From NCBI RefSeq assembly GCF_029478095.1, contig NZ_JAKOAV010000034.1, positions 1 to 36,855 on the forward strand: a stretch of 36,855 nt of DNA, in the 5' to 3' direction. The translations under genes and the position numbers were made by a program. This DNA comes from Pelotomaculum isophthalicicum JI (lineage in GTDB: Bacteria; Bacillota; Desulfotomaculia; Desulfotomaculales; Pelotomaculaceae). Below the pieces are notes generated by a model. That model was not told the origin of the DNA and did not search any database. It saw only the letters and a program-made list of their open reading frames with translations. Below are positions 11,401 through 32,724 of the stretch, one piece after another (positions within the stretch are counted from its first letter, which is position 1; every line of letters begins with the position of its first letter).

Positions 11401-11475
11401 GGAGGCGACACCCGGATTTGAACCGGGGAATGGAGGATTTGCAGTCCTCTGCCTTAGCCACTTGGCTATGTCGCC
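11400..11475 (-). tRNA. tRNA-Cys (GCA)
   Basis: The cloverleaf reads from GGCGACA at 11475. The D arm is GCCA/GGCTAAGGC-like, the anticodon loop CTGCAAA gives anticodon GCA, the T arm is CCGGG-TTCAAAT-CCGGG and the acceptor end is TGTCGCC. The discriminator is T at 11403 and CCA is encoded (11402-11400). It is last in the tRNA operon, and its 3' end faces the integrase gene, making it the likely attachment site. Confidence 0.92.
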
Positions 11476-11483
11476 ACATAAAA

Positions 11484-11558
11484 TGGAGCGGAAGACGAGA
11501 TTCGAACTCGCGACCCTCGCCTTGGCAAGGCGATGCTCTACCACTGAGCCACTTCCGC
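11484..11558 (-). tRNA. tRNA-Gly (GCC)
   Basis: Acceptor GCGGAAG / CTTCCGC, D arm GCTC...GAGC, anticodon loop TTGCCAA (GCC), T arm GCGAG-TTCGAAT-CTCGT, discriminator T, encoded CCA. Third in the four-tRNA operon, 8 bp from the tRNA-Cys gene. Confidence 0.95.
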
Positions 11559-11598
11559 ACACTTGATATTATAAACAACTATTAATTATTTGTCAATA

Positions 11599-11674
<76 letters not shown>

Positions 11675-11682
11675 ATGATTAA

Positions 11683-11759
11683 TGGCGGAGCTGACGAGAG
11701 TCGAACTCGCGATCTCCTGCGTGACAGGCAGGCATGTTAGGCCACTACACCACAGCTCC
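11683..11759 (-). tRNA. tRNA-Asp (GTC)
   Basis: Acceptor GGAGCTG / CAGCTCC, anticodon loop CTGTCAC (GTC), T loop TTCGACT, discriminator G as usual for Asp, encoded CCA. First in the operon; the promoter is about 50 bp upstream. Confidence 0.93.
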
Positions 11760-30515: not shown

Positions 30516-31913
30516 CTAAGCGTTACTTGTGTTCTGCCCTTCAACAGGCAGTTCAAAGGTAAAAGTACTGCCCTCGCCCACCTTGCTTTTAACCTGCACG
30601 CTGCCATGATGAACGTCGATAATGTGCTTTACGATAGACAAGCCGAGCCCGGTGCCTCCCTGCTCCCTCGAACGTGCTTTGTCCACGCGGTAAAAGCGCT
30701 CAAACACCCTGGGTATACTGTCCTCCGGAATACCGATGCCGTTATCCTGAACTTCAACTTTTACTTTGTTTCCATTTGACTGGGCGCTGACTTTAATCTT
30801 CCCGCCGTTTTGCGTATAACTCACCGCATTGTCGATTAAATTAATTAAAACCTGCCCGAGCATGTCGGGATCCCCGTGCACCGCCGGCAGTTTTTCAGGA
30901 AGGACAACTTCTATGTCCAAGTCCTTTTCCGCCGCGCGGGGTTTAAAGATTGCCACGGTACGCTCCATTAATTCGTGCATGGACACCGGTTGCCAGTCAG
31001 GCGCCACCTTATGGTCTTCAATTTTGGACAGGTTCAGCAATTCATCAATTAACCTGGTCAGCCGCTCCGACTCAACGTAGATGATTTCCAAAAAATGCTT
31101 GGTTGTCTGCGGGTCTTCCAGGGCGCCGTCCAGCAGTGTTTCCGTAAAACCCTTTATCGAAGTTAAAGGAGTCCGCAGCTCATGAGAGACGTTGGCCACA
31201 AACTCACTGCGCATTTCCTCTAATTTTTTCCTGCCGGTGAAATCCCTCAGCAGCGCCACCATCCCGCCTCCGTCAACACCAGTATCCCTGAGCGGGGTCA
31301 CTTGCACACGGAATAAACGAGGTTCAGGCGTCAAAAGCTGAATTTGTTTTTGTACCGGCCGCCCGGTTTCAAGAAATTGGTTCAGCAGCTTTTCAAAATC
31401 GCTGTTTCTGATCACTCTGCGAATGTTTTTACCTTTGCTGGCTTCCAGGGTAGTGCCGAAAAACTTTTCCACAATGGGGTTGACGAGTATTACGCGGCCC
31501 CAGTTGTCCATCGCGATGACCCCGTCACACATACTGGCCAGAATGGCCTGCACTTTATTTTTCTCTGAAATAACATCATCTATATTTTTTTTCAGCTCCC
31601 TGGCCAGGTAATTGATGGAGCGCGCCAAGTCACCGGTCTCATCCTGGGCAAAGATGCGTATCTCCTGCTCCAGATTTCCCCTGGCCATATCCTGGGCGAT
31701 ATAAGACATTTCCTCAATAGGGTTGATCAGACGCCTGTAGGTTATCCAGGCAAGTATTGCCGCGCTAACCAATACTAAAGCACCCATTTCCCAAAGAACG
31801 GGTTTATATAAAACATACAGCTGTGCCAAAGCTAAAAAAACCAGAAAGAGAAAAAAATAGCTGATTAATGGTCTCCATCCTATTCTAAGGAATGGTTTCG
31901 CAACGGTTAACAC
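30516..31913 (-). CDS. PhoR-like membrane sensor histidine kinase
   Basis: 465 residues. GTG start at 31913 with a poor, too close ribosome binding site (GGGTGGTAA). Two transmembrane helices at about 15-35 and 43-60 are split by only a few residues, so there is no extracellular sensor domain. Then HAMP (RRLINPIEEM), PAS (ILASMCDGVIAMDN), HisKA with phospho-acceptor His244 (FVANVSHELRTPLTSIKG), and HATPase_c with N, G1 and G2 boxes (NLIDNAVSYT, DNGIGIPE, GGTGLGLSI). It resembles PhoR kinases of Firmicutes. The likely partner is the receiver at 32341-32724, but a 427-bp gap separates them and that partner lacks a DNA-binding domain. Confidence 0.88.
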   Translation of the reverse strand: MLTVAKPFLRIGWRPLISYFFLFLVFLALAQLYVLYKPVLWEMGALVLVSAAILAWITYRRLINPIEEMSYIAQDMARGNLEQEIRIFAQDETGDLARSINYLARELKKNIDDVISEKNKVQAILASMCDGVIAMDNWGRVILVNPIVEKFFGTTLEASKGKNIRRVIRNSDFEKLLNQFLETGRPVQKQIQLLTPEPRLFRVQVTPLRDTGVDGGGMVALLRDFTGRKKLEEMRSEFVANVSHELRTPLTSIKGFTETLLDGALEDPQTTKHFLEIIYVESERLTRLIDELLNLSKIEDHKVAPDWQPVSMHELMERTVAIFKPRAAEKDLDIEVVLPEKLPAVHGDPDMLGQVLINLIDNAVSYTQNGGKIKVSAQSNGNKVKVEVQDNGIGIPEDSIPRVFERFYRVDKARSREQGGTGLGLSIVKHIIDVHHGSVQVKSKVGEGSTFTFELPVEGQNTSNA

Positions 31914-32201
31914 TTACCACCCTGGTTTCTGAAATCTAAACAAATCATTTGTTTAGATTCCTCTCCCGTCCGACTAAACGGGAGGCAGTTTCACAGGATT
32001 CAACTGCCCAGCTATGGACTCCCGTCCATATTCCGGGTGGCAGAAATGCCGCCTGGCTTTACAGTTCTGCCCGGAAGGGGGTGTAACCCACCGCCTGGTT
32101 GATTTAACCTCCGCGCCCGACTTTCACCGCGAGGCTAAAGCGACGCATCATCGGATTTAACTGCTTAGAAACCTTTTCCTCTCTAAATTTTACTTAACAC
32201 T
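31907..32201. repeat. 8-bp direct repeats flanking the structured block
   Basis: TTAACACT occurs at 31907-31914 (spanning the kinase start) and 32194-32201, bracketing the hairpin-rich segment. It could be a target-site duplication, though an 8-base match can arise by chance. Confidence 0.35.
31933..32160 (-). ncRNA. Hairpin-dense structured RNA candidate of unknown class
   Basis: No gene lies in 31914-32340. Within 31933-32076 many short perfect stems follow one another: 31933-31945/31947-31959 (13-bp palindrome); CTCCCGT 31963-31969 with ACGGGAG 31978-31984; GGCAGTT 31984-31990 with AACTGCC 32002-32008; TATGGAC 32013-32019 with GTCCATA 32024-32030, whose minus-strand loop is GGGA, a GNRA tetraloop; TTCCGGG 32031-32037 with CCCGGAA 32070-32076. 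Stem after stem with no spacing is unlike spacer DNA and like a folded RNA. It is GC-richer than its flanks. The minus-strand 3' hairpin followed by AGGAATC resembles the right ends of IS200/IS605-type elements, whose RNAs guide TnpB/IscB nucleases. No protein gene for such a system is present, and no sequence match is claimed. Confidence 0.5.
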
Positions 32202-32226
32202 CATATGACACTCACCTCCTGTTTCT

Positions 32227-32256
32227 ACTATAAAATAGAACGGATGTTCGTGTCAA
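32227..32256 (-). promoter_or_regulatory. Promoter with LexA-type SOS box in its spacer
   Basis: Minus strand: TTGACA (32256-32251), an 18-base spacer, TATAGT (32232-32227). The spacer holds CGAACATCCGTTCT; the core GAAC-N4-GTTC (32238-32249) is the Firmicute LexA binding motif. LexA bound here would block RNA polymerase. AGGAGG (32220-32215) lies at the expected 5' end, followed by ATG AGT GTT AAG TAA, a 4-codon frame. The downstream products are the structured block and the kinase. Confidence 0.5.
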
Positions 32257-32340
32257 CGAATTATTATACTTTACATAATTTTATTTAACTATATCCTCTT
32301 TACATGTAACTTCCTAATCCGGCAGTTGCTCAATGTTTCG

Positions 32341-32724
32341 CTAAATGTGGTTTGGGCGCGCTTCATTGAGCCTGGTTTTAATTCTAGCCGACAATTCCCG
32401 TGGGCTAAATGGCTTGGTAACATAGTCGTCGGCACCCATTTCCAGCCCCAGCATCCGGTCCAGTTCCTCAGCCCTGGCGCTCAGCATAATGATCGGGATA
32501 CTTTTTGTCGCGGTATCGCGACGAAGTTCCTGGCATACTTCCAGGCCGTCCATTTCCGGCAGCATAACGTCGAGCAAGATCAAATCAGGTGCCTCATTCC
32601 GTGCGATTTCAAGACCCTTAACACCGTCCAAAGCAGTTAATACCTGATAACCATCCCGCTCAAGGTTAAAGCGGACCAGTTCAAGAATATTCTTTTCATC
32701 TTCCACCACTAATATCCGGGGCAT
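32341..32724 (-). CDS. Response regulator receiver domain, PhoB-like but without DNA-binding half
   Basis: 127 residues. ATG after AAAGGGTGAT. It is a complete receiver domain: acidic pocket Glu8-Asp9, phosphorylation site Asp52 (LILLDVMLPEMDG), Ser82, and Lys104 (VTKPFSPREL). The run of conserved residues is strongly PhoB/PhoP-like and ends in SARIKTRLNEARPNHI, exactly where the linker to the winged helix begins. A normal PhoB has about 100 more residues. No remnant of a winged helix is seen downstream. It is either a truncated gene or a working single-domain regulator. It follows pgeF by 4 bp, so it is in the same operon. Confidence 0.85.
   Translation of the reverse strand: MPRILVVEDEKNILELVRFNLERDGYQVLTALDGVKGLEIARNEAPDLILLDVMLPEMDGLEVCQELRRDTATKSIPIIMLSARAEELDRMLGLEMGADDYVTKPFSPRELSARIKTRLNEARPNHI

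Follow-up and report, generated by a model that had tools for sequence, protein, structure and literature searches.

The stretch of DNA analysed here (the window) comprises 36855 nucleotides of contig NZ_JAKOAV010000034.1 of Pelotomaculum isophthalicicum JI (genome G000). Positions 31921–32309 on its minus strand are occupied by a 389-bp element that carries no gene and sits in the Shine-Dalgarno sequence of phoR. Sequence comparison places it in a family of IS607-type transposons of Desulfotomaculum-like bacteria, as a non-autonomous member with an internal deletion, and establishes its ends, its target, the pairing of its RNA and the sequence and origin of its promoter. The window copy lacks the tnpA and tnpB open reading frames (ORFs) and retains the transposon ends, the right-end RNA and the tnpA promoter. 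With moderate confidence it is regarded as an IS607 derivative whose right-end element RNA (reRNA) would serve the TnpB of another copy or strain and to which the tnpA promoter with a LexA-type operator has been joined. The original prediction, made from the letters of the window, had described an inserted, folded RNA between a PhoB-like and a PhoR-like gene; this was confirmed, and its hypotheses of a TnpB guide RNA and of a new structured RNA both apply.

The genome contains five copies of the element including that of the window, so the repetition at other loci that had been anticipated was found four times. The other copies are 94, 92, 92 and 80% identical, and each is oriented with a gene starting directly after it. 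The right end of the window copy is CAGAAACCAGG, with the last base at 31921, where the match to the covariance model R1 also stops; the left end was placed by alignment with the other copies. The boundaries proposed earlier (31914–32340) had to be narrowed and AGGAATC had to be abandoned as the element end. The 8-bp repeat TTAACACT, described as flanking, is no target duplication, one copy lying at the phoR start and the other in a mini-ORF (32190–32204).

A DNA search of 25 genomes of the bacterial family gave matches in 20 of them and revealed elements with a common right end. R1 gave 79 matches of at least 110 bits in genomes of the class, 71 of which were tested; four copies of G015 (Pelotomaculum sp. 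PtaB.Bin013, the same species as the window genome), three of which were inspected and correspond to G000 sites, two of G005 (one with and one without a start codon in reach) and two of G097 were left out. The right-end sequence AGAAACCAGG was exact in 59 of the 71 copies, and the final GG was present in all 71. In longer relatives the same right-end RNA is preceded by the gene for an IS607 TnpA, for a TnpB-like protein of about 484 aa, or for both. A tnpB-like ORF or fragment preceded the RNA in 36 copies, with the match ending 261–369 nt from the right end, and the structured, covarying RNA beside a TnpB gene is the arrangement of a TnpB reRNA. The remaining 35 copies, the window copy among them, had no upstream tnpB, although two of these lie at contig ends and are not judgeable. 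The TnpA of one longer copy (L065) scored 172.7 bits with the IS607 TnpA model NF033518 (cut-off 110) and is fused to a deleted TnpB; further longer copies have tnpA stretches upstream (tblastn). The element is therefore of the IS607 type, with a serine recombinase and a GG crossover, and not of the IS200/IS605 type suggested before. In the one-contig genome G058, 13 copies with tnpB or pieces of it (L179–L191) have almost identical RNAs, which is a recent burst. Searches of phage and plasmid collections gave no match to the element, and no viral contig was matched by the DNA pattern or by the TnpB alignment.

Two types of solo copy were distinguished. Type A comprises 17 copies with a window-like 5' part from G000, G006 (PtaB.Bin104), G009, G011 (P. 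propionicicum MGP), G012, G014 and, from another family, G046. The second type (L161, L166 and L176 of G046, G080 and G102, from three families) has a different 5' part and a TGCTAAAAT-like -10 and lacks an exact LexA-type box.

The target was revealed by empty sites in G016, a genome of the same genus. The empty phoR site reads TTAAGGAGG, then ATTGGGAA-GTG, and the empty pyrG site ATAAGGAGG, then AGTTT-ATG, and in both cases the insertion has split AAGGAGG. At phoR, the CCAGG end of the element replaces part of this sequence, and the distance between phoB and phoR is much shorter in the insert-free G016, which agrees with the predicted separation of the two genes by an insertion. GG was found at both junctions at pyrG and phoR relative to G016 and at a site compared between G015 and G000; the left junction of the window copy now reads AAG. 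At the last of these sites, a tnpB copy of G015 lies inside a coding gene at GTGGAGG, where G000 is empty (flank 96% identical over 1494 bases). From this insertion, the target seems to be GGAGG and not the ribosome-binding site as such, and the position before genes is explained by the GGAGG target plus selection. Of 32 rows with a left-end core, 18 have GGAGG before it; among rows with no more than two mismatches, the figure is 14 of 18, and for control windows 269 of 14200. The core was not found in 39 of the 71 rows, and some of the 32 are chance matches within genes. Contig 272 of G015 was rejected as an empty pyrG site because the contig begins there.

A start codon (ATG, GTG or TTG, belonging to an ORF of 40 aa or more) was located 4–12 nt past the end of 57 of the 71 copies, in 35 cases at 7 or 8 nt. 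Control sites examined in this way gave 5012 of 38914 (13%) for GG and 44 of 173 (25%) for AGGAGG; the control DNA includes the elements, the copies within a genome are related, and a small number of insertions recur in several genomes. Many relatives are inserted before other genes, several of them essential. The downstream proteins with Pfam matches, 11 in number, were a histidine kinase, Glu-tRNA synthetase, CTP synthase, ribosomal proteins L28, L32, L2, L9 and S18, an Fe/Mn superoxide dismutase, a NifU/IscU-like protein and Phe-tRNA synthetase; one further protein tested had no Pfam match.

The hairpin-dense character of the segment, with at least five perfect stems of 7–13 bp, was borne out. 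On the minus strand, a terminal 13-bp hairpin (31933–31959; 31933-31945/31947-31959), detected in the stem search and the type-A alignment, is adjoined by the hairpin CTCCCGT..ACGGGAG (31963–31984; 31963-31969/31978-31984), also found by stem search, with two-sided changes in four of eight pairs. A hairpin around the conserved TTGAATCC (31984–32008; 31984-31990/32002-32008) showed no two-sided changes in the 22-copy alignment, and one with a GNRA-like loop (32013–32030; 32013-32019/32024-32030) showed them in six of seven pairs. The fifth stem pairs 32070–32076 (5' strand) with 32031–32037. The stem search also revealed a closing stem, P1, formed by GGTTTCT (32167–32173) and AGAAACC (31924–31930), directly before the element end. 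The GGTTTC and GAAACC strands of P1 were present in 46 of 69 copies, compared with GGTTTC in 27 of 706 control windows, and in tnpB copies the 5' strand falls within the last tnpB codons. The loop GGGA, noted previously as a minus-strand GNRA loop, was GNRA in 17 of 22 aligned copies as read by eye. On both strands the segment folded better than every one of 100 dinucleotide shuffles (minus z -4.5, plus z -6.0), and so folding alone does not choose the strand; the minus strand was chosen because the promoter, the element ends and the downstream genes point that way. The block 31933–32076 (50% GC) is GC-richer than its immediate flanks, as stated earlier (44% in the 300 bases to the left, 41% in 32077–32340), but not richer than the phoB gene (50%).

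Covariation was assessed for 31 pairs in 22 copies, those with an insert of about 100 bp being omitted. Among all cells, 96.4% were paired, and two-sided changes occurred in 11 of the 31 pairs (52 cells), compared with at most six pairs and 12 cells when the partner was slid by 1–3 columns. Four measures exceeded all 500 shuffles. The covarying stems anticipated in the original prediction are thus present, and none of the outcomes that it had named as contrary (no compensatory changes, a segment confined to this locus without conserved stems, homology to a coding gene) arose.

The model R1, built from the window copy and 21 others, matched the 3' core of the element (31921–32095) with 185.9 bits. 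It found the RNA in 22 of the 25 family genomes, in 40 of 113 class genomes and in 14 of 398 sampled genomes of the phylum, 11 of these 14 outside the class, where the RNA is rare. An exact 30-base pattern was found in 20 stretches of a named genome collection, assigned to Pelotomaculum, Desulfoscipio, Desulforamulus, Desulfotruncus and 'Clostridiales PH28'. Rfam, with RAGATH-18, HEARO and introns included, was scanned using this segment of the window (E up to 10) and seven other loci (E up to 1); no family matched, and the hits were only chance ones to long non-coding and small nucleolar RNAs. The RNA family is new to Rfam, and the proposed IscB/HEARO guide RNA found no counterpart in these scans.

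The promoter lies at 32256–32227 on the minus strand and consists of a -35-like TTGACA (32251–32256), an 18-bp spacer and a -10-like TATAGT (32227–32232), together matching 11 of 12 consensus bases. The LexA operator consensus is of the CGAAC-N4-GTTC type, and a box of this type, CGAACATCCGTTC (32238–32250), is located between the two hexamers. The recA gene of the same genome (RecA by Pfam) has a box of the same type, CGAACATGTGTTC, about 39 nt upstream. The exact pattern CGAAC-N4-GTTC was present in 11 of the 17 type-A copies, and 14 of the 17 had at most one mismatch from CGAACANCTGTTC; five of the 12 distinct box sites of G000 fall in the five elements. Downstream follow AGGAGG and the four-codon mini-ORF ATGAGTGTTAAGTAA (32190–32220). 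In longer copies this AGGAGG is matched in the alignment by the ribosome-binding site of tnpA. A mini-ORF of 3–6 codons, starting with ATG after an AGG-type site at the position of the tnpA start, was found in 14 of 17 type-A copies.

The longer copies indicate where the promoter came from. They align with the solo copies at the left end, the -35, the box and AGGAGGTG, and the promoter layout is the same. Among seven longer copies, three had a box with at most one mismatch 29–35 nt before the tnpA match (shuffles were as good in 0, 1 and 0 of 300), a fourth had a three-mismatch box at the same place, and the remaining three had none. A LexA-type promoter specific to solo copies was therefore rejected: it is the tnpA promoter, which, as judged from sequence, the solo element places before the RNA. 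Transcription of the element from it, under SOS control, would be expected from the hexamers and the box. The LexA-type box before tnpA in L164, L165 and L065 raises the possibility that the whole IS607 family here is damage-controlled. Another such box (L096; G000 C42:17209) lies near ORFs judged by eye to be integrase- or resolvase-like.

The TnpB-like ORF of about 484 aa matched TIGR01766 with 35.1 bits (cut-off 32) and guided_TnpB with E 1e-16, below the cut-off of that model, whereas Pfam returned nothing. Among solved structures, a sequence search found only two designed peptides (E 0.06–0.08), with one TnpB as the query, and a profile search none. A structure model built on 14 sequences, near-copies among them, was weak (pLDDT 66, pTM 0.47). 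Foldseek with this model placed Cas12f first (E 1e-8, TM 0.28) and ISFba1 TnpB at rank 28 (E 4.5e-4); no TnpB ranked first. In VIA-align, model residues 3–264 aligned with AsCas12f (Z 13.5, 3.7 A) and residues 272–406 with Thermus thermophilus RuvC (Z 9.6, 3.4 A, 118 residues); ISDra2 TnpB gave Z 10.3. The model thus points to a TnpB/Cas12 fold. Cognate TnpB matches occurred in 7 of the 25 family genomes and were near full length in G011, G012, G013 and G015; the G015 match, from the same species as the window, has one TGA, with an open frame of 481 aa. G011 has two TnpB ORFs of full length alongside three solo copies of type A.

Several observations weigh against a guide function of the RNA or against damage control, the missing TnpB and the unusual active site being the weakest points. 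A search of G000, rated 99.95% complete, for the cognate TnpB gave 0 matches, and no IS607 TnpA scored above its cut-off there, with 14 weaker serine-recombinase matches; two other TnpB-like ORFs are present. The predicted proteins of this TnpB group (L053:71-1519, L055:54-1505 and relatives) have an altered active site: Asp279 and Glu340 are invariant in 14 of 14 aligned sequences, but the third RuvC aspartate, by position as read, is replaced by His406 in all 14, in an H[EQ]-A-A motif. A CxxC motif was found in none of the 14, so that the D-E-D triad and the zinc ribbon are both incomplete or absent, which leaves DNA cleavage uncertain. In G000 as a whole the box pattern shows no enrichment (15 rows versus 34 for the reversed pattern), and four of seven tnpA promoters have no near-exact box. 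The promoter and operator lie in the left end, where conservation may reflect transposase binding. Further pair types in the RNA numbered 27 and did not exceed the shuffles (mean 29.0). A start codon was out of reach in 14 of the 71 copies, one of which lies inside a coding gene, and the type-A set was chosen by eye.

The recognition of the LexA-type promoter as that of tnpA lowered the guide explanation slightly and raised that of a plain IS607 miniature inverted-repeat transposable element (MITE), in which TnpA acting in trans moves anything that bears the two ends, while the promoter and the RNA are deletion leftovers and the RNA is no guide. This alternative is doubtful but has to be taken seriously: the absence of a cognate TnpB from G000 suits it, the solo layout of left end, tnpA promoter and right-end RNA is what a deletion would leave, and several other solo copies still retain the last codons of tnpB. 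It accounts less readily for the near-exact box in 14 of 17 type-A copies and for the RNA helices, which are still paired in type-A copies with two-sided changes in 11 of 45 pairs. The force of the latter point is reduced by a quickly built tree of the RNA cores (68 distinct ones; long branches and 36 of 65 forks unresolved), in which type-A copies did not form one clade (p-AU, the approximately unbiased test, 0.005). A single type-A lineage was rejected on this ground, and the two-sided changes are not creditable to solo copies alone, since they may predate tnpB loss. The type-A cores of G011 grouped with a tnpB copy of their own genome, sharing its insert of about 100 bp, and one core of G012 was placed near tnpB copies of G012 and G015; the other type-A cores were not so placed. 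Repeated origin of solo copies and exchange of RNA cores would both fit this tree, and the RNA may be kept fitted to the local TnpB. The insert, in the same RNA loop, occurs in solo and longer copies (L044, L045, L046, L055 and L065 of G011; L067 and L070 of G020).

The altered active site could also indicate TldR-like, RNA-guided repressors, with a nuclease-inactive TnpB using solo guides at element-free sites. The invariant histidine, the lack of CxxC and guides that would point to gene start regions favour this, but it is judged unlikely. D279 and E340 do not vary, the domain can be aligned with RuvC of T. thermophilus, histidine is known from active sites of RuvC and Cas9, and in the carrying cell the element splits the site. 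There is likewise little probability that the element is a co-opted cis-regulatory leader, providing phoR, pyrG, gltX and rpmB with a damage-inducible promoter or a structured 5' untranslated region. Copies do lie in the same orientation directly before gene starts, with their own promoter and with hairpins beside the new ribosome-binding site; against this, the pyrG and phoR sites are empty in G016, and tnpB-bearing copies occupy the same type of site, so that target choice accounts for the position. A self-splicing element restoring the mRNA (a group I or II intron or IStron-like), suggested by the strong folding within leaders, is very improbable given the IS607-type GG ends and the lack of a match to Rfam introns at the thresholds above.

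HEARO, or IscB omegaRNA, is a transposon guide RNA; unlike there, the RNA here lies 3' of the nuclease gene and has no Rfam match. Palindrome-associated transposable elements (PATEs), which are non-autonomous IS200/IS605 derivatives, and MITEs have ends without genes and use a transposase in trans. The gene-less ends and a presumed need for transposase from elsewhere are shared by the present element, which differs in its transposase family and in keeping a promoter, an operator and a guide scaffold. The closest published system is RAGATH-18 reRNA with the ISFba1 TnpB, also of IS607, in which, in the passages of PMC11061315 concerned, the RNA is likewise downstream of and separate from tnpB. 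The transposon-adjacent motif (TAM) given there is AGGAG in 18 of 22 strains, and 64% of 16029 RAGATH-18 RNAs adjoin a TnpB, so that RNAs without one occur (PMC11061315). The GGAGG target fits this TAM (PMC11061315) and the IS607 crossover at GG (PMC10711439). The ISFba1 protein has 387 aa compared with about 484 here, where the third RuvC position is His, CxxC is lacking and the RNA has no Rfam match; moreover, in the solo copies here a tnpA promoter carrying a LexA-type box precedes the RNA. ISXfa1 shares the GG crossover, a fixed right-flank nucleotide and, as predicted here, a reRNA extending past the right end, but its TAM is GGG, and the passages of PMC10711439 on it describe no solo copies. 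TldR proteins, RNA-guided repressors (PMC13418256), resemble the present system in a TnpB-derived protein with an altered active site and, as envisaged here, in guides near gene starts, while the element here sits in its own target and at many sites.

The host genes on both sides of the window copy are a PhoR-like kinase (30516–31913, minus strand; HisKA, HATPase_c, HAMP and PAS domains), whose GTG start lies 7 nt past the element, and a response regulator of 127 aa (32341–32724, minus strand) matched in Pfam by Response_reg alone. The receiver-only form is also found in G016, whereas the G009 and G007 proteins continue into a DNA-binding domain. It was considered that the insertion had severed this domain, and this was rejected because G016, without the element, has the receiver-only protein too. 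A PhoR beside a regulator without a DNA-binding domain is odd. The C1 copy (L010) precedes a pair of small genes (2627–2938 and 2320–2613), antitoxin/toxin-like by eye, neither with a Pfam match. Four tRNA genes are located at 11403–11759 (minus strand) of the window.

If the RNA acts as a guide, the following course may be envisaged. The element has inserted at GG within the AAGGAGG of phoR, and RNA from its promoter would run through the scaffold into the start of the host gene, taking in some 20 nt of the insertion site as the guide; by the reRNA layouts in PMC11061315 and, in the passages concerned, PMC10711439, this guide would be 31901–31920 (minus strand), which covers the start codon of phoR. 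The RNA would be bound in trans by a cognate TnpB, supplied by another copy or strain, which would act at the vacated site with AGGAG as TAM, and repair of the break from an element-bearing sister would restore the element. Through damage-type control, breaks would yield more transposase from full copies and more guide RNA from solo copies. In a genome without TnpB, as G000 apparently is, what remains would be a passive leader to the host gene. The earlier notion of a guide-RNA relic may hold, as the cognate TnpB was not found in this genome, but the promoter, operator and RNA pairs have been kept.

More generally, and only tentatively, these copies may represent solo guide-RNA transposons as a class of their own: IS607 derivatives without genes, needing the TnpA and TnpB of other copies, with the Shine-Dalgarno sequence as both TAM and landing site, and with a damage-controlled tnpA promoter redirected to the guide RNA, so that a break at the vacated site would switch on the RNA that restores the element. 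Recombination may keep the 3' scaffold in step with the TnpB of its own genome, as suggested by the insert common to solo and longer copies of G011. Among the papers listed by searches of open-licence full texts in PubMed Central (PMC), none dealt with solo IS607 reRNAs, with LexA control of TnpB elements or with Shine-Dalgarno sequences as targets.

TnpB is the ancestor of Cas12, and in the TnpB systems known to us it moves together with its guide. In the present case the guide scaffold moves without the nuclease, and the promoter before it is apparently responsive to damage. If this reading is true, guide and nuclease would be separated naturally outside CRISPR, the TAM AGGAG would make sense as a Shine-Dalgarno sequence, where an insertion ahead of needed genes can be tolerated, and the retention of a transposon would be tied to the SOS response.
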